From Aquitalea aquatilis (GTDB lineage Bacteria; Pseudomonadota; Gammaproteobacteria; Burkholderiales; Chromobacteriaceae): a DNA stretch of 64,000 bases. Below, in pieces: positions 1 to 9,133 of this stretch; position 1 is the first letter of the stretch; each line of letters starts with the position of its first letter. Both the position numbers and the translations under genes were made by a program. Location of the stretch: contig NZ_CP039731.1 of the NCBI RefSeq assembly GCF_005155025.1, forward strand, positions 930,001 to 994,000, given 5' to 3'. The notes beneath the pieces are model-generated. The model did not search any database. It was not told the origin of the DNA and saw nothing but the letters and a program-made list of their open reading frames with translations.

Positions 1-584
1 GGGAAGAAATGCAGTTCGCCCACCAGGAAACTGACCATGCCTATTTGGCACTAAGCCAGGCACGCGAACGACTGCTGCGCTTTCAGAACCAGCATCGGGT
101 CATCAACCCGGTAGAGGAAGGCCAGGCGGCCAGCCGCATGATCGCAGAAATGGAAACCCGCCAGGCACAACAAGAAGCAGAACTGGACAATCTGCAGCGC
201 TATCTGCAGGCAGATGCTCCCCAGATCGAAGCCGCACGACATGCCCTGGGCGCATTGAAACAGCAAATCGAAAAGGAAAAGTCCAAGCTCAGCGCCCCCT
301 CCGGCAATCGCCTCAACCGCACCGCTGCCGAATATGCCGAACTCAAAGGACGGCTCGACTTTGCCGCCGATCTCTACAAGCTAGCACTGAACAGTCTGGA
401 AAAAGCCCGGGTCGATAGTGGCCGCAACATCAAAAGCCTAGCTGTTATTGCCACACCCAGCCTCGCAGAAGAGGCCGAATACCCGCAGCGCGCATGGTGG
501 CTGATCAGCGCCGCACTGGTACTGCTGCTGCTGTGCGGCACACTAAAACTGGCCAGCGCCATCATTGAAGACCATTACACCTAG
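1..584 (+). CDS. Capsule polysaccharide export inner-membrane protein, KpsE/CtrB-type (5' end missing)
   Basis: This is the C-terminal part of a polysaccharide co-polymerase-like protein that couples the capsule ABC transporter in the inner membrane to the outer-membrane export protein. The frame is open to the window edge (in-frame codons before the first Met at 9), so the true start lies outside. What is visible is a long charged coiled coil (roughly the first 130 residues, rich in Gln, Glu, Ala and Leu), then a family-typical PSLAEEAEYPQR stretch and one C-terminal membrane helix (AWWLISAALVLLLL). That order of periplasmic coiled coil followed by a second transmembrane helix is what KpsE/CtrB/BexC proteins show at their C-terminus. 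The gene ends 11 bases before the KpsD-like gene and is probably co-transcribed with it. The family call is firm from layout and context; the exact subfamily is not. Confidence 0.85.
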   Translation, partial: EEMQFAHQETDHAYLALSQARERLLRFQNQHRVINPVEEGQAASRMIAEMETRQAQQEAELDNLQRYLQADAPQIEAARHALGALKQQIEKEKSKLSAPSGNRLNRTAAEYAELKGRLDFAADLYKLALNSLEKARVDSGRNIKSLAVIATPSLAEEAEYPQRAWWLISAALVLLLLCGTLKLASAIIEDHYT

Positions 585-595
585 GCAACACACTC

Positions 596-2236
596 ATGCG
601 CACCTCATCCCAACACGCACGGACTACTGCGCTGCCCACCAGCCTCGCGCTACTGCTCGGTCTGGCATGGCTGGCTTCTGGAACAGCCGCCTTGGCCGCG
701 ACCAGTATTGAAAACGCTGCCACTACTCAAGCAGCCGCGGCTTATCCGGGGAAAGCAACTTCCAACATGTTTGGAGCGCAATTATTCGATGGTCATTTTA
801 GCCAGATACCAAGCAGCGGCTTCAATCCAGACTACCGGATCAGCCTGGGTGACCGTATCAATCTGCGCCTGTGGGGGGCATTTCCCTACGAAGGCCAATT
901 GCCAGTCGATCCGCAAGGCAATATTTTCATTCCCAATGTCGGCCCGGTTGCAGTGGCTGGCGTGCGTAATGCCGAACTGAACCCACACATCAGCCAACAG
1001 CTCGGCAAGGTATACAAATCCAATGTCCGCATGTACGCCAGCCTGGAGACGGCCCAGCCGGTCAAGGTCTTCGTCACCGGCTACGTCAAACAGCCAGGCC
1101 TCTATGGCGGCCTGGCGGCCGACAGCCCGCTCAGCTATCTGGACAAGGCTGGCGGCGTGGACAATGCCAGAGGCAGTTATGTGGATATTCGCATCTTGCG
1201 CGCCGGGCAATTGCGACTGCAGATCGATCTCTACCGTTTCCTACTGAACGGACAGCTGGATGTCACCCAGTTTGCCGATGGCGACGTGATCGTCGTCGGG
1301 CCGCGCCAGCATACCTTCTCCATGCGCGGCGAGGTGTACAACGCCTATGACTTCGAATTTCCCCACCCCAGCATCACGCTGCAGCAGGCCCTGGCCATGG
1401 CCAGGCCAAAACCTGGCGCCACCCACGTCAGCATTGTGCGTGGCCAGGGCAGCGCGCGCCGCAGCGAATACCACGCACTGGCTGCCATCGAGGGGCTGCA
1501 GCTGGAAGACGGCGACCAGCTAACCGTCACCGCCGACCGCTATGCCGGCACCATCCAGATCCGCGTGGAAGGAGCCCACTCCGGCGAACATGCCATCGTA
1601 CTGCCCTATGGGGCCAGCATGGCCGACATCCTTGCCCAACTGCGCGGCAACAGCATGTCACAAACTAATGCTCTGCAACTGTTTCGCCAATCCGTCGCCC
1701 AGCGACAGCAGGAAATGCTGGATGTCGCGCTCAACAAGCTGCAGGAAAGCGCACTTTCCGCCCGCTCAGCGACCAAGGAAGAGGCTGACTTGCGCAGCAA
1801 AGAAGCCGAACTGATTAGCAAATTCGTCGAACAAGCACGCAAAGTCACCCCTAAAGGGCAGGTGATTCTGAATGAAGAAAATCTGAGCAGCACTCTGCTG
1901 GAAGACGGCGACATTATTCGCATCCCGGAAAAAAGCAGCGTGGTGCAGGTACACGGCGAGGTGCTATTTCCCAATGCACTTGGCTGGCAACGCGGTCTGA
2001 GCGCAACAGACTATATCAAACGTGCAGGTGGCTTCATGCAAGAGCCGGACGATTCTCGCATTGTCATTATTCGGCAAAACGGAGCCGTCATTACCGACCG
2101 TAATCCCTCCATCCAGGCAGGCGATGAAATAATGGTATTACCAAAAATAGAAGCAAAAAATATTGAAATCACACGCAGCATAACTCAAATTTTGTATCAA
2201 ATTGCCGTCTCTGCCAAAGTAATATTCTCATTTTAA
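596..2236 (+). CDS. kpsD: KpsD-type outer-membrane capsule polysaccharide export protein
   Basis: This 546-residue protein has the size of E. coli KpsD (about 560). It would form the periplasmic/outer-membrane conduit for capsule export. The N-terminus is a signal peptide (hydrophobic core LALLLGLAWLASG, cleavage near ALA-AT) without a lipobox Cys, as in KpsD and unlike the lipoprotein Wza. Residues about 78-150 form the polysaccharide export domain (YRISLGDRINLRLWG, then QGNIFIPNVG). SLBB-type beta-grasp repeats follow near 165-210 (VTGYVKQPGLY, DKAGGV), near 250, and near 450-500 (VHGEVLFPNALGW, IKRAGGF). A Gln/Lys/Glu-rich helical stretch lies at about 360-410. ATG at 596 follows the preceding stop closely. 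Base composition turns AT-rich in the last 120 bases, leading into the AT-rich segment downstream. Confidence 0.88.
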   Translation: MRTSSQHARTTALPTSLALLLGLAWLASGTAALAATSIENAATTQAAAAYPGKATSNMFGAQLFDGHFSQIPSSGFNPDYRISLGDRINLRLWGAFPYEGQLPVDPQGNIFIPNVGPVAVAGVRNAELNPHISQQLGKVYKSNVRMYASLETAQPVKVFVTGYVKQPGLYGGLAADSPLSYLDKAGGVDNARGSYVDIRILRAGQLRLQIDLYRFLLNGQLDVTQFADGDVIVVGPRQHTFSMRGEVYNAYDFEFPHPSITLQQALAMARPKPGATHVSIVRGQGSARRSEYHALAAIEGLQLEDGDQLTVTADRYAGTIQIRVEGAHSGEHAIVLPYGASMADILAQLRGNSMSQTNALQLFRQSVAQRQQEMLDVALNKLQESALSARSATKEEADLRSKEAELISKFVEQARKVTPKGQVILNEENLSSTLLEDGDIIRIPEKSSVVQVHGEVLFPNALGWQRGLSATDYIKRAGGFMQEPDDSRIVIIRQNGAVITDRNPSIQAGDEIMVLPKIEAKNIEITRSITQILYQIAVSAKVIFSF

Positions 2237-2266: not shown

Positions 2267-4489
2267 ATGAAACCATTTCAACTCAAAACAAATCACTCCC
2301 CTACCCTGCTTGAGGTGATTATCCCATTCCGTTGGACTGACAAACGCCCCGATCTACTTGATCGTTTAAACTATCCGCTGATGGATACACAGCGTCCTCA
2401 CTCTGTTCATTTCACCATCGCAGACGATGGCTCACCTCGTCACATCAGCAGAGAGCTGGAAAAAATATGCCAAAACCACGGATATAATTATCTGCATATT
2501 GAAAGCGAACTTGAACCAGTCTGCATGAGCAGAGCTCGCAATATTGGGGTGTGCGCCGTTCCATCTGAATTCATTATGTTTCAAGATGTTGACCTAATGC
2601 CCTACGATGGATTTTATAGCGATGTTCTCAATGAGATACAAATACAAAATTTAACCAACAATGCTTCCCTTTTCTTAATGTTCGGTGTTATTTACCTTAC
2701 ACAATCTGCCACCGAACTTTATTACACCACTCCCAGTCATCTGCGTAAAAATCTGTTTATCCAACATCTTCTTAACGAAAATACTCATTACATAGAAAAA
2801 TTTTCCACCGGAACATCCGTCACCGTATTCAACCGGAATTACTATCTATCACGAGGTGGCTACGATGAAGATTTCATTGAGTGGGGCTATGAGGATATTG
2901 AGTTCAATACGCGTTGCATTCGGGCATCACGCTACTTCCCTCTCCCGGAAAATTTTCTCACCGATAATCAGTCATTCCGTCACATAAACCGCTACCAGGG
3001 GTGGAAAAGCATTTATAGACTTTTTGGCGATATTACTTTTCAAAAAGGAATTGTTTTATTTCATTCCTGGCATGCCATTGATGGCCATTCCGGTTACATG
3101 AAACGAAAAGCTATAAACAAGCAACTATTTGAAGAAAAAGTAAAAAAATTCAGCTCGCGGGGAGAAGAACCACCCCCTCTTGCCGCACTAGACAAGGGAA
3201 AGACATTATGTTTTTCCTTGACAAATCCTTTTATCTACAACAAAAAAACCGCACCTCTCCTTGGCGAAATATTTTACGAAGATGAAAATAATTTCACCCC
3301 AGAAATATTGATTTCGTATATTAAAAAACACGATATAACTCGAATACTATTTCATAATCCATATGCAAACGAACACCGCCAAAAATTATTTAATACCATA
3401 AAAAATAACAATATTAAATTTATAATCGCCGAGCGAGGTGCATTACGCAATTCGGTATTTTTTGATGACACCGGCTTCAATGCAGATAGCAAAAAATTCG
3501 ACGAAGATATTTGGAACGTACCGATCACAAAAAATGAACAGGATTATATTCGTAATTATATTATTGAAGAAAAAACACTGGATGAATCACTGGAAAAGCA
3601 AGCTGCGTTACTCGGCATAGAGGCAACAAGAAAAAAATTAATGCTGCCGCGACATAAAAAAATCATCTTCATCCCACTACAAAGACCAAGTGACACGGTC
3701 ATTCTCCATTTCTGTAAAAAAATAGGGGGATATGAAGGATTTATTGAACTCATCAGAAATGCGATATCTCAGCTCAATGATGAATATGTCTTTGTTATCA
3801 AAAAACATCCTCTGGAAGATGAAACCCCCGACCTGCCTGGTGCAATATTTGCGAATAACATCAACATCAAGGACTTGCTTGCCATTAGTTCAGCAGTGCT
3901 TCTCATCAACTCGGGGGTTGGGATACTGGGCATGCTCTATGAAAAACCTGTTTTATTAGCCGGTGATGCATTTTATGGATCTCCGCTACTCACCCATCAG
4001 GTCAGAACTGTTAGTGATATTGAAGATGGATTGAAAAATTTTCAGCCACACCAAGAAACCATTTTACGGTTTTTGAAATATCTAATCATGGACTATTACT
4101 CATTTGGTCACTTTCAAACCCGTGAAATACCGTGGAAAGACACTGGCCGTATGACTATTACAACATCGATTGATTTTTACCAAATAAGAATACCTGGGCA
4201 ACCGGGAATAAATTATTACCCACAAGAAAAAACCGTTCCACAAAGCTCAATTTTATTTGATCGATACCGCACGCCAAAGCTAGCTCCCCCACACCCGCAG
4301 CCTATCATAGCGGAAAAGCCCAGCATTAGTATACAACCCAAAAAAATTACGCACGAAATAGAAAAATCAATGATTAAACCCTTACCTTCCACTCGTGCGC
4401 GTAAAATAAAAAAATTGCGAGAAGATCCTAGATCATTCCTCTTAGATTCTCGTTATCGGCTACTGAATTTACTTGGAAAAATACTCTGA
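2267..4489 (+). CDS. Bifunctional capsule glycosyltransferase: GT-A domain fused to a KpsS/KpsC-like domain
   Basis: This is a 740-residue protein with two apparent catalytic halves. Residues about 12-290 look like a family 2/galactosyltransferase-type GT-A domain: VIIPFRW start, SRARNIGV, a DVD metal motif (107-109), and GGYDEDF followed by WGYEDIEF (about 197-213), typical of capsule-polymerising enzymes. Residues about 310-640 resemble the capsule Kdo-transferase domain of KpsS and KpsC. AERGALR and GFNADS match EEGYLR and GVNARS of the KpsS in this window, KKHP matches KHHP, and INSGVG...KPV...AFYGSPLLT matches its INSTVG...KPV...ALYDMPGLT. A basic Pro-rich linker leads to a C-terminal KIKKLREDPRSFLLDS tail. 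ATG at 2267 has GGAA six bases upstream; an upstream in-frame TTG at 2255 has no such site. The stop overlaps the next ATG by one base. The gene is far more AT-rich than its flanks. The sugars transferred are unknown. Confidence 0.8.
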   Translation: MKPFQLKTNHSPTLLEVIIPFRWTDKRPDLLDRLNYPLMDTQRPHSVHFTIADDGSPRHISRELEKICQNHGYNYLHIESELEPVCMSRARNIGVCAVPSEFIMFQDVDLMPYDGFYSDVLNEIQIQNLTNNASLFLMFGVIYLTQSATELYYTTPSHLRKNLFIQHLLNENTHYIEKFSTGTSVTVFNRNYYLSRGGYDEDFIEWGYEDIEFNTRCIRASRYFPLPENFLTDNQSFRHINRYQGWKSIYRLFGDITFQKGIVLFHSWHAIDGHSGYMKRKAINKQLFEEKVKKFSSRGEEPPPLAALDKGKTLCFSLTNPFIYNKKTAPLLGEIFYEDENNFTPEILISYIKKHDITRILFHNPYANEHRQKLFNTIKNNNIKFIIAERGALRNSVFFDDTGFNADSKKFDEDIWNVPITKNEQDYIRNYIIEEKTLDESLEKQAALLGIEATRKKLMLPRHKKIIFIPLQRPSDTVILHFCKKIGGYEGFIELIRNAISQLNDEYVFVIKKHPLEDETPDLPGAIFANNINIKDLLAISSAVLLINSGVGILGMLYEKPVLLAGDAFYGSPLLTHQVRTVSDIEDGLKNFQPHQETILRFLKYLIMDYYSFGHFQTREIPWKDTGRMTITTSIDFYQIRIPGQPGINYYPQEKTVPQSSILFDRYRTPKLAPPHPQPIIAEKPSISIQPKKITHEIEKSMIKPLPSTRARKIKKLREDPRSFLLDSRYRLLNLLGKIL

Positions 4490-5094
4490 TGGCAAACATC
4501 TCAATGCTTGGGCTTGGCAATGAAATTAACAGTTCAACGGTGCTAGACAATCAACAAAATCTCAATATCAAGATAAAAGGAGATAACAATAAAATTCTCA
4601 TTGGTAGCAAATGTGAATTAAACGGGTTAAATATACAAATTGAAAGCAATGAAAATGTATTGCACATTGGAAACTCATGCCGACTAAAAGGCTGCTTCAT
4701 CATGAAACTGGCCAATGGCAATCAAATAAATATTGGCCAAAGTTGCACCATGGGTGGTGCCAATTTAATCTGCGGGGAAGGAAGTAGCATTTTTATTGGC
4801 GCAGACTGCATGCTGTCCTGGGGAATTGAAATACGTTCCACCGACTCACATGCCATTTTTCAATCCAGTGACGGAAAGCGAATTAATCCAGCAGCGGATA
4901 TCCGCGTGGAAAGCCATGTATGGATTGGTGCACACTGCACCATACTCAAGGGCAGCCATATCGGAAGTAATTGCGTTGTGGGGATTCATTCTCTGGTATG
5001 TGACACCTTTCCCGACAGTGGCCAGATTATAGCGGGCATTCCTGCACGCCCGATTCGACAAGGCATCAACTGGGACAGACGCTTGCTGGGATGA
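4489..5094 (+). CDS. Left-handed beta-helix (hexapeptide) acyltransferase of the capsule locus
   Basis: This 201-residue protein is built almost entirely from hexapeptide-type repeats: recurring [IV]G or IxIG steps such as NKILIGSKCEL, NVLHIGNSCRL, NQINIGQSCTM and SSIFIGADCML. It ends in the usual VWIGAHCTILKGSHIGSNCVVG coil and the IIAGIPARPIR exit typical of the WbbJ/maltose O-acetyltransferase group. The STDSH near residue 118 is a good candidate for the active-site His loop. By family it should acetylate a capsule sugar using acetyl-CoA; neither substrate nor acyl donor can be read from sequence. It overlaps the upstream glycosyltransferase by one base (TGATG) and kpsC by four (ATGA), so the three are translationally coupled. 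It shares the AT-rich composition of the upstream gene, which suggests the pair arrived together. Confidence 0.85.
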   Translation: MANISMLGLGNEINSSTVLDNQQNLNIKIKGDNNKILIGSKCELNGLNIQIESNENVLHIGNSCRLKGCFIMKLANGNQINIGQSCTMGGANLICGEGSSIFIGADCMLSWGIEIRSTDSHAIFQSSDGKRINPAADIRVESHVWIGAHCTILKGSHIGSNCVVGIHSLVCDTFPDSGQIIAGIPARPIRQGINWDRRLLG

Positions 5095-7244
5095 CTCGGA
5101 AAACATATCCATGCAGCGCCGGTATCGCCATCCGCTCGTGGCGGCTGTTCAACTTGCCCAGGCTGGAAATACTGCTGCAACAGCCCTGTTACTGGTGCCC
5201 TCTTGGCACACAAGATGGGCAGCCCCACCGTACCTGGGCAGCTTGGGGGCATAGACCGGCTACCAAACAGCTACGTTTGCATGCCAAGCGCCGTAGCGGG
5301 AGCTATCTGGCACTGGAAGATGGTTTCATCCGTTCGCTGGGGCTAGGTGCACAAGGTTATCCACCTTGGTCCATCGTGGCAGATGATCTGGGGATTTACT
5401 ATGACGCCAGCCAACCGTCACGGCTGGAGATATTGGTCAGACAATTGGCAGCTGACTGCCAGAACACCGCAGAGCCGGAACGACAGGCAGCAGCCCATGT
5501 GCTATTGCACAATGCGCAGCACGGCATGGCCTTGTTGCTAGCTTACCGCTTGTCCAAATACAACCATGCGCCTGACTTCTTGCCACCGGTGGGCTGGCAG
5601 CACGACGCGGTACTGGTAGTCGACCAGACCGTAGGGGATAGGTCTGTACGTTACGGCAATGCAGATGCTGACACTTTCCGACAAATGTTGCGCACCGCCG
5701 TGCAAGAAAACCCGACGAAACAGATCTGGATAAAAACGCATCCAGATGTACTATGTGGCAAGAAACAGGGCTATCTCACCCGGCTAGCCGGAATGGAAGA
5801 ACGTGTGCAGCTGCTTGGCGTTGATGCCAATCCACTCACGCTACTGCCGCATATAGCGCAGGTTTACACCGTCTGTTCGCAGCTCGGCTTCGAGGCCTTG
5901 CTCTGCAACAAACCCGTGGTGACCTTCGGCCAGCCTTGGTACGCCGGCTGGGGCCTGAGCGATGATCGCCATCCTTTGGCCGCCGATCTGGCCAAACGGC
6001 GGGGAGCGGCAACACTGCAGCAATTATTTGCCGCCTCCTATCTGCAGTATTGCCGCTATGTGAATCCAAGCACGGGTGGCCTAGGCACACTATTTGATGT
6101 CATCCATCATTTGCAGCGCCAAAAAGCAATCAATGATCGCCTACGCGGGGAATTGGTCTGTATCGGCATGAGCTGGTGGAAGCGGGCAGTGCTCGCCCCT
6201 TTCCTACGGCAGCCCTCCTGCACAGTGCGTTTTGTCCGATCGGCCAAAGCGCTACAGTATTTACCCATGCAGCCAATGCGCAAGATCGCGGTATGGGGCA
6301 GCGGCCAGGCTGACATTCTGCATCTGGCGCAAGAGCGAAACTGGCCGCTGCTGCGGATAGAAGATGGGTTCATCCGTTCGGTGGGTTTAGGTTCAAACCT
6401 CACTCCACCGTTATCGCTGGCACTGGATGATGAGGGCATATATTTCGACCCACGCCAGCCATCTCGCCTGGAAACGCTGCTGGCCACGCAGCAGTTTGCA
6501 GACATGGATCTAGCAGAGGCAGAAGCACTACGGGCACAACTGCTCCGTGCCGGGCTTGGCAAATACAATGTTGGTCAGGATGCATTACAGCTACCCCTGC
6601 CCAGGCCCGCTGTCGTCATTCTGGTGGTGGGGCAAGTGGAAGACGATGCCTCGATTTGCAACGGATCGCCATGGATACAGACCAATCTTGCTCTGCTCAA
6701 GTCGGTACGGCTGACATACCCAACAGCGTTCATCGTTTACAAACCACATCCCGATGTCGTCAGTGGCAATCGCATTGGCAGCATCACAGCTAAAGACAGT
6801 GACAGCCTGGCTGACATGGTCACGACGCAGTGCGATATGCATCTCTGTTTACAGCAGGTGGACCAAGTTCACACCATGACCTCGCTCGCGGGTTTTGAAG
6901 CATTGCTGCGTGGTAAGCGCGTGGTTTGCTATGGTCTACCCTTTTATGCTGGCTGGGGCCTGACCCAGGATGTATTCGCCAATGTCCCGCTGGCGAGTGG
7001 CACGCCTCATCCGGCCTGGAAACGTCGTGCCAGACGCCTGGCACTGAGCGAGCTGATTGCAGCTAGCCTGTTGCTCTATCCCTGTTATATCGATCCCGTC
7101 AGCGGCGATGCCATCTCGCCCAGCCAGGCCGCCACTCTGCTTGCCCACCAAAAGACTGACAAAACAGCGACACGCCTACATGGCAACTGGCTTTCCAAGC
7201 AGCTTGGCAAACTGCGCATGCTATGGCGCAGTGTCATGCGCTGA
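5091..7244 (+). CDS. kpsC: KpsC-type capsule beta-Kdo transferase (tandem GT domains)
   Basis: KpsC/LipA proteins build the poly-Kdo linker on the phosphatidylglycerol anchor of ABC-exported capsules. The 717-residue product has the internal duplication expected of the family. EDGFIRS occurs at about 76 and again at about 424. KTHPDV (about 215) is matched by KPHPDV (about 550). GFEALLCNKPVVTFG...YAGWGLS is mirrored by GFEALLRGKRVVCYG...YAGWGLT. Length is slightly above E. coli KpsC (about 675). The ATG overlaps the stop of the acyltransferase (ATGA). GC content returns to the high level of the chromosome here, marking the right edge of the AT-rich segment. Confidence in the family is high; enzymatic specificity is taken from the family. 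Confidence 0.93.
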   Translation: MTRKTYPCSAGIAIRSWRLFNLPRLEILLQQPCYWCPLGTQDGQPHRTWAAWGHRPATKQLRLHAKRRSGSYLALEDGFIRSLGLGAQGYPPWSIVADDLGIYYDASQPSRLEILVRQLAADCQNTAEPERQAAAHVLLHNAQHGMALLLAYRLSKYNHAPDFLPPVGWQHDAVLVVDQTVGDRSVRYGNADADTFRQMLRTAVQENPTKQIWIKTHPDVLCGKKQGYLTRLAGMEERVQLLGVDANPLTLLPHIAQVYTVCSQLGFEALLCNKPVVTFGQPWYAGWGLSDDRHPLAADLAKRRGAATLQQLFAASYLQYCRYVNPSTGGLGTLFDVIHHLQRQKAINDRLRGELVCIGMSWWKRAVLAPFLRQPSCTVRFVRSAKALQYLPMQPMRKIAVWGSGQADILHLAQERNWPLLRIEDGFIRSVGLGSNLTPPLSLALDDEGIYFDPRQPSRLETLLATQQFADMDLAEAEALRAQLLRAGLGKYNVGQDALQLPLPRPAVVILVVGQVEDDASICNGSPWIQTNLALLKSVRLTYPTAFIVYKPHPDVVSGNRIGSITAKDSDSLADMVTTQCDMHLCLQQVDQVHTMTSLAGFEALLRGKRVVCYGLPFYAGWGLTQDVFANVPLASGTPHPAWKRRARRLALSELIAASLLLYPCYIDPVSGDAISPSQAATLLAHQKTDKTATRLHGNWLSKQLGKLRMLWRSVMR

Positions 7245-7382: not shown

Positions 7383-8807
7383 ATGCCTCGGGGCAAGGTA
7401 TTCGAAACCGTGCAGGAGCCGCGCTTGCCGCCCAACGATTTATCCCCACCCAGCCCGACACCACCTCCCGACCCTATCACCACGGTAAGGGGTACTTCTT
7501 CTTCACAGCCAGTGGCGACGACGCATGTTCCTGCACTACAGGCCCTGCTCAGACACAGGAGAATCCTGTTGCTGCAAGGGCCAATGGGCTTTTTCTTTTA
7601 CCAGTTTGCTTACTGGCTGCAACAACACAAGTGCATGGTTTACCGCGTGTTGTTCAATGGTGGTGACTGGCTGTTTTATGGCAACCAGCAGGCGGAACAT
7701 TACTGCGGTAAACCCGAAGAATTTGCCATCTGGTTGCACGCCTATCTGGCAGAACGGGGCATTGAGGCCATCGTCTGCTTCGGAGACTGTCGCCAATACC
7801 ACCAGACTGCCGCAGCCATCGCCAGACAGTGCCATCTGGCATTCTATGTGTTTGAGGAAGGGTATCTGCGGCCAGACTACATCACTCTGGAAAAAGACGG
7901 CGTCAATGCACGCTCATCGCTGGCCGGGTATTCCGCTGCGCTCACGACTCCAGCTCTGGGCGAACATCATCCGGCCAAACCGGTTAACGCGTCTTATCCG
8001 CGCATGGCCATGTCGGCGATGGCGTATTACGGTGCCTGCTGGCTGCTGCATTGGCGCTATCCGCATTATGAGCACCACAAACCACTCCTGCCCGTGCCGG
8101 AAGCATGGCGATGGATGCGCTCAGGCCTGCGTAAAATGCTCTACCTCCTTACCGAATACCGGCTGCGCCGCGACATGCTGGGTCTGCGGCAGAATCGATT
8201 CTTTCTGGTCGCCCTGCAAGTATTCAATGACAGCCAGGTGCGACATCACAGCAGCTACGGCGATGTGCAGGAATTCATTCGCGAGGTCATCACCTCGTTT
8301 GCTCGCCATGCAGCGCATGATCACCACCTGCTGCTGAAGCACCACCCGATGGACCGGGGGCATCGGCAGTATCGGCAGCAGATACGCCAGATCGCGCTAC
8401 AGCTGGGCGTCTGCCAGCGTGTGCATTATCTGCATGATGCCCATCTACCCTCGTTGCTCAAGGCCAGTCGAGGGGTGATTACCATCAACAGTACAGTCGG
8501 ACTGTCCGCTCTATATCACGGTAAACCCGTCATCACCCTGGGTAGCGCGCTGTATGACATGCCGGGGCTAACTGCGCAGTGCCCGCTAGCTGAATTCTGG
8601 CAACGGGCACCGGTACCAGACCCGCAACGCTACCGACAGCTACGTCGGTCATTGCTGCACCATACCCAATTGAATGGCTCTTTTTATGGTGCCTGCCACT
8701 GGATGGCTTCTCCGGCAGGCTCAGCTCCGGCATCACCTCGTCATCGCGTCAGATTCATTCTGACCATGCTGGCTGTGCTGGCCTGTCAGTTGCTGTGGCC
8801 GACCTGA
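7383..8807 (+). CDS. kpsS: KpsS-type capsule beta-Kdo transferase
   Basis: KpsS/LipB adds the first Kdo residue of the capsule linker to lyso-phosphatidylglycerol in E. coli. Motifs seen: ILLLQGPMGFFFYQFAYWL near the start of the conserved part, EEGYLRPDYITLE with GVNARSS, KHHPMDRG, and NSTVGLSALYHGKPVITLG with ALYDMPGLT. These are the family signatures. The frame allows 474 residues from ATG 7383 (GAGG 11 bases upstream), but the first 50 residues are Pro/Ser/Thr-rich and not family-like. GTG at 7512 would give a product closer to the usual length of about 390-430, so the start is uncertain. A 138-base gap separates it from kpsC. A short hydrophobic helix (FILTMLAVLACQLLW) lies at the very C-terminus, which is not typical. 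Confidence 0.9.
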   Translation: MPRGKVFETVQEPRLPPNDLSPPSPTPPPDPITTVRGTSSSQPVATTHVPALQALLRHRRILLLQGPMGFFFYQFAYWLQQHKCMVYRVLFNGGDWLFYGNQQAEHYCGKPEEFAIWLHAYLAERGIEAIVCFGDCRQYHQTAAAIARQCHLAFYVFEEGYLRPDYITLEKDGVNARSSLAGYSAALTTPALGEHHPAKPVNASYPRMAMSAMAYYGACWLLHWRYPHYEHHKPLLPVPEAWRWMRSGLRKMLYLLTEYRLRRDMLGLRQNRFFLVALQVFNDSQVRHHSSYGDVQEFIREVITSFARHAAHDHHLLLKHHPMDRGHRQYRQQIRQIALQLGVCQRVHYLHDAHLPSLLKASRGVITINSTVGLSALYHGKPVITLGSALYDMPGLTAQCPLAEFWQRAPVPDPQRYRQLRRSLLHHTQLNGSFYGACHWMASPAGSAPASPRHRVRFILTMLAVLACQLLWPT

Positions 8808-9133
8808 AACCTGCGCATGCCAGGCACCGCAGCGCATGGCCGGGGTTTCACTGCTGAACCGGGCCAGCCAGTAGCCAACGCGCCGCCAGCAGCGGCGCTC
8901 GTGTCGAATGAAACGCAGCAGGGCATGGCCCCAACTGTCGGACTCCGGGGGTGTGGTGTTTACATGGTGCCGACAGAACATTTCTCTCTCCCGAAAACAG
9001 GCTGCGCGGATGAGAAAAATATAGCGCCGGGCGGGTGAATATCCTGTCAAGAGAGGACTGGCCCACATAAAAAACACGCAAAAAAACGGCAGCCTTGCGG
9101 ATGCCGTTCGGTTTTCTCGCGGATAGCTAGCGC
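8808..9133 (+). other. Non-coding gap between kpsS and purD
   Basis: This 326-base stretch separates the convergent capsule genes and purD. Short open frames exist on both strands (up to about 110 codons on the minus strand, running into kpsS), but none has a good ribosome site or recognisable protein features. The only clear element is the purD terminator at 9079-9108, listed separately. No terminator for the capsule operon was recognised on the plus strand. Confidence 0.5.
9079..9108 (-). terminator. Rho-independent terminator of the purH-purD operon
   Basis: On the minus strand a 7-bp stem (AACGGCA with TGCCGTT, extended by partial pairing inward) encloses a GC-rich loop and is followed at once by a run of seven T. 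It lies 26 bases after the purD stop. Confidence 0.85.

Follow-up and report, generated by a model that had tools for sequence, protein, structure and literature searches.

The stretch of DNA analysed here (the window; 64,000 nucleotides, positions 930,001 to 994,000 of Aquitalea aquatilis contig NZ_CP039731.1) carries, at 2267..4489, a gene for a 740-residue protein in which a glycosyltransferase module of the GT-A fold is joined to a KpsS-like module for transfer of β-linked 3-deoxy-D-manno-oct-2-ulosonic acid (Kdo), as judged from Pfam, profile-profile comparison and a structure model. All window features described below lie on the plus strand. We consider the protein a candidate bifunctional, group-2-type polymerase of an O-acetylated capsule of hexose or N-acetylhexosamine (hexose(NAc)) and Kdo, built on a linker made by KpsS and KpsC, and put the probability of this reading at roughly 0.78. 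The fusion is probably the whole machine that builds the capsule polymer of its host. KpsS and KpsC first make phosphatidylglycerol-(β-Kdo)n, as is established in other bacteria, and the locus encodes both enzymes. Using a nucleotide sugar as donor, the N-terminal GT-A half would next add hexose or N-acetylhexosamine, and the C-terminal half would add β-Kdo from cytidine monophosphate (CMP)-Kdo by double displacement; judging from aligned residues, Asp476 of a QRPSD motif would attack CMP-Kdo, an HP motif would hold CMP and Glu389 would activate the acceptor. By taking turns, the halves would produce a -hexose(NAc)-Kdo- polymer which, going by the gene families present, the adjoining hexapeptide transferase probably O-acetylates and KpsMTED would export.

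The gene is a single open reading frame (ORF) that runs from ATG 2267 to a stop at 4489 in the ORF list and its translation, while the opposite (minus) strand has many stops in the same frame register. The start is backed by two orthologs, in stretches L021 and L022, whose sequences start at the same position. Pfam places PF10111 at residues 17-293 (E 1.2e-32) and a single PF05159 (Capsule_synth) module at residues 452-580 (E 3.6e-10), both above the gathering score, and according to Pfam and the structure model about 10 residues separate the two modelled modules. A preliminary description of the gene had claimed one protein uniting a GT-A half with a KpsS/KpsC-like half, and one ORF with PF10111 followed by PF05159 is what we find. 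Every motif quoted there occurs in the translation: VIIPFRW (17-23), SRARNIGV (88-95), DVD (107-109) and WGYEDIEF (206-213) in the N-half, and ERGALR (389-394), GFNADS (403-408), KKHP (512-515) and NSGVG...KPV...AFYGSPLLT (548-576) in the C-half. The most telling motif, the QxxxD nucleophile signature QRPSD at residues 472-476, was absent from that list.

The C-half (residues 305-640; 3179..4186) was assigned as a retaining β-Kdo-transferase-like module by Pfam, profile-profile comparison, a fold model and a tree. Its proposed likeness to KpsS and KpsC held up in profile-profile comparison, which gave a probability of 99.4 (E 4e-21) against KpsS and of 97.7 and 98.0 against the two KpsC modules. 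Because controls in the same test, comprising six unrelated families from the same loci and the protein's own N-half, scored at most 0.3, this likeness is far beyond chance. In the model the C-half has the modified GT-B fold of KpsC and WbbB, with KpsC as the nearest solved fold and KpsS as the nearest profile. A phmmer search with the whole protein alone found no solved Kdo transferase, and the window's own KpsS likewise finds none. The catalytic residues of the KpsC/KpsS fold are aligned in the C-half as well. Glu389 (3431..3433), the predicted general base, aligns with the E of KpsS EEG and KpsC EDG, although in KpsC alignments gaps come right after it; it corresponds to Glu66 of E. coli KpsC, for which a general-base role has been described (PMC10148158). 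Asp476, the predicted catalytic nucleophile within QRPSD (3680..3694), corresponds to Asp160 of E. coli KpsC and aligns with GQVESD of the solved KpsC 6mgd and with KpsS/KpsC; in KpsC and WbbB a Kdo adduct on the nucleophilic Asp has been demonstrated. The KKHP sequence (3800..3811) contains the HP motif, which has a role in CMP binding (PMC12887879). Since fold, QxxxD, HP and Glu base are all matched, membership of the C-half in the retaining β-Kdo transferase superfamily is supported by these alignments.

The N-half (residues 1-300; 2267..3166) is a predicted hexosyl or N-acetylhexosaminyl transferase of the GT-A type (PF10111/PF02709). It matches K4CP and β4GalT7 by profile, its fold model spans residues 11-305, and a K4CP chain is its top PDB sequence match. 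The D-x-D motif D107-V-D109 (2585..2593) aligns with DCD of K4CP, and WGYED (residues 206-210; 2882..2896), a motif of β4GalT/KfoC-like GT-A enzymes, aligns with WGGED; the general roles of DxD and WGxED are familiar. K4CP/KfoC, the chondroitin polymerase, is likewise a capsule polymerase with two active sites, but both of its modules are GT-A and no Kdo linkage is made. Both predicted sites are well conserved among 26 full-length sequences. The two Asp of DxD, G207 and D210 are kept in all 26, E209 in 25 (D in L023) and W206 in 17 (H in the other 9). In the Kdo module, the Q of QxxxD and P515 are kept in 26/26, the D in 25/26 and H514 in 24/26; the Glu389 position is E in 21, D in 3 and G in 2.

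A plain KpsS or KpsC paralogue was rejected as an identity for the protein, given the GT-A half and the separation of the modules in the tree. A tree that also held 7 KpsS and 12 KpsC modules brought 27 Kdo modules together in a single group with 98% support in the Shimodaira-Hasegawa-like approximate likelihood ratio test (SH-aLRT), with KpsS apart at 96 and KpsC apart at 99; the method was a quick one with SH-aLRT as its sole support, and it carries a long-branch warning, such that a join of long branches may be false. The fusion further differs from KpsC in having a single PF05159 module instead of two tandem Kdo modules. Against the KpsS family NF050054 (cut-off 600) it scores 31 bits, but the KpsS of the locus, at 374 bits, also falls below the cut-off, and the distinction from KpsS therefore rests on the tree together with the 31-bit score. 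With a Kdo-module profile built from 26 sequences, fusions score 328-480 bits, a protein of reversed module order 311, and KpsC and KpsS scored alongside at most 72. Proteins of family f44, which lie outside the profile, score 311-358 bits. A 487-residue ORF in L088 (G217) reaches 80 bits, equal to its score with the KpsS profile. Distances among N-halves and among C-halves correlate (Mantel r 0.88, 26 sequences, 0/2000 permutations; r 0.77 for pairs with C-halves less than 60% identical), and the halves have therefore mostly travelled together.

The GT-A module precedes the Kdo module in the 26 sequences. In the reversed protein (G501 contig C24, L147:6815-9067, minus strand) the Kdo module comes first, with 39% identity to residues 331-642 of the Aquitalea protein, and is followed by a group-1 glycosyltransferase of PF13692, which we take to be a GT-B family. 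Its gene adjoins manC (GDP-mannose) and a hexapeptide transferase, an arrangement that suggests a mannose-Kdo polymerase; G501 also has a normal copy at a contig start. Outside Aquitalea, the closest protein in the tree of Kdo modules is 48% identical and lies in a kps locus of Pontiellaceae (Kiritimatiellota; L023:9953-12175), and its presence in another phylum suggests horizontal transfer. Tentatively, and with less confidence than we attach to the polymerase itself, these Kdo modules may form a separate family, distinct from KpsS and KpsC, that recombination has paired with various sugar transferases on either side, and so provide a plug-in route to hexose-Kdo capsules in Pseudomonadota and Kiritimatiellota that would include the polymerases of rhizobial hexose-Kdo K-antigens.

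The gene sits between conserved capsule genes. The window opens within kpsE (1..584; profile match), the gene for an export protein of the inner membrane, which is followed by a kpsD/wza-like gene for a polysaccharide export outer-membrane protein (596..2236; Pfam/NCBIfam); kpsF, kpsM and kpsT lie further upstream of kpsE (L002). The polymerase stop overlaps the start of a gene for a 201-residue hexapeptide (left-handed β-helix) acyltransferase, a probable capsule O-acetyltransferase (4489..5094), whose top NCBIfam matches are acetyltransferases, all under their cut-offs, with PF00132 slightly under its gathering score. The acyltransferase gene in turn overlaps kpsC (5091..7244), which encodes the two-module β-Kdo transferase for the poly-Kdo linker (Pfam, profiles), and kpsS, whose product places the first β-Kdo onto phosphatidylglycerol, comes after it (7383..8807, start codon uncertain; NF050054). 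The guanine-plus-cytosine (GC) content is 0.39 in the polymerase gene and 0.44 in the acyltransferase gene, compared with 0.56-0.59 in six kps genes and 0.62 in the window from base 9001 on. Because of this lower GC, the pair looks like a serotype cassette that can be exchanged, flanked by conserved genes for export and for the linker. We found no second polymer-specific glycosyltransferase at the locus, where six window proteins were profile-scanned and the remaining ORFs were read by eye; elsewhere the genome is unsurveyed.

Sialic, pseudaminic and legionaminic acids require a NeuB-family synthase. In the host's own genome, which is one contig, the sole NeuB-family match is a 3-deoxy-D-arabino-heptulosonate 7-phosphate (DAHP) synthase (PRK08673, 437 bits; PseI 32 bits against a cut-off of 340), and for this reason CMP-Kdo, produced for lipopolysaccharide and for KpsC and KpsS, is the likely donor for the C-half. 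Two other Aquitalea genomes have NeuB-family matches of similar size. The donor might instead be one of these other CMP-ulosonates, as for the KpsS homolog KpsS1 (GT118), which transfers pseudaminic acid (PMC12887879): the C-half is nearer KpsS than KpsC, and the Pontiellaceae and Skermanella hosts do have NeuB-family synthases. We regard this as very unlikely, given the lone DAHP synthase of the host and the fact that no NeuB-family synthase was found in the shotgun assemblies of two Cupriavidus and one Caldimonas genome.

Two-in-one sugar-Kdo polymerases, whose existence the preliminary description had mentioned without naming one, are on record in CsaA and KrkA. CsaA, the type a capsule synthase of Kingella kingae, combines an N-terminal GalNAc transferase and a middle/C-terminal β-Kdo transferase in one protein, with the linker made by separate β-Kdo transferases, the lipA/lipB products (PMC5070880, PMC9592894). 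It has 811 residues compared with 740 here, and its capsule genes lie dispersed over the chromosomal DNA of its host, whereas those of Aquitalea are clustered with an acetyltransferase gene; the likeness is one of domain order and of role as described. This parallel and the presence of kpsC and kpsS in the locus support the dual-action reading, with KpsC/KpsS supplying the linker, that had been put forward earlier. KrkA (GT140; E. coli K13/K20/K23) is also a single protein that makes a sugar-Kdo disaccharide capsule, has a retaining Kdo module with QxxxD and HP, and is encoded in a region with an acetyltransferase gene (PMC12887879). Unlike the present protein, with its PF10111 GT-A partner, KrkA has its Kdo module at the N-terminus and a ribosyltransferase-phosphatase as partner; it is reported to lack significant sequence similarity to WbbB, KpsC, KpsS and KpsS1 (PMC12887879), whereas the C-half here is recognisably KpsS-like. 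KpsS and KpsC (GT107) share PF05159 and the QxxxD, HP and Glu motifs with the C-half, but they make a Kdo-only linker, and those of the window have no GT-A domain by Pfam. By analogy with CsaA and KrkA, the protein is a further example of a known arrangement and not a new kind.

One protein can also unite a polymerase with a β-Kdo terminator, as WbbB of Raoultella terrigena / Klebsiella O12 does (PMC9587256, PMC11231755), and the N-half might accordingly polymerise a hexose chain that the C-half caps once with Kdo, halting growth. WbbB, in which Kdo ends the chain, has three modules, two of them polymerising domains, and a helical spacer, whereas the Aquitalea protein has one glycosyltransferase module and a gap of some 10 residues. 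In addition, at 220 residues KpsT is about as large as an ATPase domain by itself, so that a carbohydrate-binding module to read such a cap would not fit. A terminating role is thus decidedly unlikely.

Several observations weigh against the proposed hexose(NAc)-Kdo polymerase. The structure model of the N-half is weak at residues 202-208 and 220-251. The Kdo site is altered in 2 of the 26 homologs, L013 being without base, nucleophile and His and L016_a without base and His, as might be expected if only one half were catalytic and the other served for docking or acceptor binding; the other 24 retain the listed residues at both sites, three of them with Asp in place of the Glu base, and we hold this alternative to be the least probable of those considered. 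No kps gene was found beside the fusion in L010 or in stretches L144 and L148, and in L011 and L016 the only one recognised is a KpsC-like ORF. As donor clues, kdsA (4 of 28 fusion stretches and 4 of 25 controls) and galE (7/28 and 9/25, a partial piece in L163 being uncounted) do not discriminate, and for this reason the hexose is not named. The 28 include L002, the upstream part of the window's own locus, and L147, with the reversed protein; the 25 controls are fusion-free kps stretches of f44. Genes for kdsA lie near the fusion at L145:8268-9167, L146:10237-11091, L024:12857-13792 and L174:11812-12639, and in controls L150, L155, L158 and L171, loci which may themselves make Kdo capsules. 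Within f44 only, the counts are 3/5 and 4/25, a weak contrast in which L145 and L174 are near-identical and several controls are cut by contig ends.

Further counter-evidence comes from Sinorhizobium meliloti 1021, whose reported capsule is a Kdo homopolymer, [->7)-β-Kdop-(2->]n (PMC4881576). This strain has a distant homolog (L017, 24% identical), and a hexose-Kdo product can therefore not be assumed for every member. Conceivably, here or in some relatives, the chain consists of Kdo added by the C-half, and the GT-A half contributes just one sugar to the KpsC product as a primer or link; a GT29-GT107 dual protein accompanies a putative poly-Kdo K6 capsule (PMC13171606). This is unlikely for several reasons. 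Across the 26 sequences the residues of the GT-A motifs and of the Kdo site are equally well conserved, and the single-gene CsaA, with its like domain order, yields GalNAc-Kdo. The 1021 homolog is only 24% identical to the Aquitalea protein and has no established role in the poly-Kdo capsule. A paper on the 1021 Kdo capsule is said to tie kdsB2, smb20804 and smb20805 to Kdo polymerisation. The latter two are reported to affect the 1021 capsule (PMC5539429).

Other rhizobia have capsules of the kind we propose, with Gal-Kdo in USDA205 and Man-Kdo in USDA257 (PMC4881576), and a hexose-Kdo-type capsule is also on record for Kingella. In the available open-access literature we found no passage naming the polymerases of the rhizobial hexose-Kdo K-antigens, and none that describes this protein group, assigns a polymerase function to its members in rhizobia or mentions the reversed variant. 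The abstract of the 2026 KrkA paper describes the enzymes for Kdo in variable capsule regions as hitherto uninvestigated (PMC12887879), a statement that the CsaA genetics predate. With a one-gene polymerase, one acetyltransferase, mutable residues and relatives in sequenced rhizobia, the gene offers a compact and testable case. If the family is real, sequence could in many cases reveal the presence of Kdo in a capsule, and the modules might find use in making Kdo-containing glycans in vitro.

The same two-domain order, which the preliminary description suggested seeking in other capsule loci, was found there. Full-length fusions lie inside kps loci of varying gene order in two Cupriavidus genomes, G348, Pontiellaceae and a Citrobacter freundii IncX5 plasmid, and no other polymer glycosyltransferase was recognised among the ORFs read in these loci. 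Named Aquitalea genomes have copies 87% and 84% identical in the same gene order, and of nine genomes from the genus besides that of the host, two carry the gene. Among 399 genomes of the order, 3 have a full-length match (the host, G002 and G348); family f44 (83 genomes) has at least 5 genomes with full-length relatives among the matches listed. A scan of 84,980 species genomes with two short peptide patterns, and hence an undercount, confirmed 60 loci: 7 full-length (two Aquitalea, two Cupriavidus, Pontiellaceae, Skermanella and Sinorhizobium), 1 cut short (Caldimonas, L028) and 52 in the GT-A half only. The plasmid collection yields 43 matching records at E 1e-3, of which 30 come from Sinorhizobium, where examples lie in the rkp region of pSymB; 32 records have one place covering at least 80% of the protein. 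No match was found in 5,426 E. coli genomes by a DNA-level search, which distant relatives could escape, and none by tblastn in 50,697 phage records. An acyltransferase of the window type also occurs in L021, L022, L024, L025 (in two frames), L026, L115 and L007; L018 and L011 have an annotated CatB-type acyltransferase in its place, and none of the window type was found in L023, where a methyltransferase-like ORF was read by eye.

The homologs with altered Kdo sites (L013:11887-14292 and L016:9017-11734) have intact GT-A motifs and have lost two or three Kdo catalytic residues, and may be pseudo-enzymes. On the conjugative IncX5 plasmid pRHBSTW-00985_4 of C. freundii (L018:8697-20249), a fusion 24% identical lies in a KPS-type locus with kpsM, T, S, C, D and E, in which no kpsF was found and which an IS1 element adjoins. 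Stretch L114 (12924-13994, minus strand) of G022, from the same family as the window, has a stand-alone GT-A relative of 356 residues in a kps locus, 27% identical over residues 88-290 and separated from kpsC by another ORF. In control locus L159 (12012-13676, minus strand; G473), an extra 554-residue ORF beside kpsC gives KpsS, KpsC and C-half matches of 21-25 bits and is perhaps a separate Kdo transferase. G486 has an 802-810-residue relative, not shown to be CsaA, beside an ORF read by eye as truB.

The C-terminal tail of the polymerase contains ARKIKKLREDPRSFLLDSRYRLL (residues 711-733; 4397..4465), a short tag identified by motif count and common to some other capsule-locus ORFs. Its approximate form, KLxx[DN]PxxFFxD, has 16 distinct matches in 2,186 ORFs of at least 200 residues, a count made without a shuffled control. 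It stands at the C-terminal end of fusions in L018, L021, L022, L024, L025, L026, L115, L116, L117 and L120, and occurs also in other ORFs in L145 and L168 (N-terminal), L158 and L013, with one match in L051. It is possibly a shared signal for targeting to the membrane or the Kps complex.

In S. medicae ml20 pSymB (L019:2180-7300) a fusion gene of the 1021 type is broken, with frames shifted, and other strains hold intact copies; a natural split pair was rejected there, as istA/istB-like ORFs of the IS21 type lie between the pieces (by eye). The rkp region of S. meliloti ml46 pSymB (L007:14932-19806) carries two different fusion polymerases in tandem.

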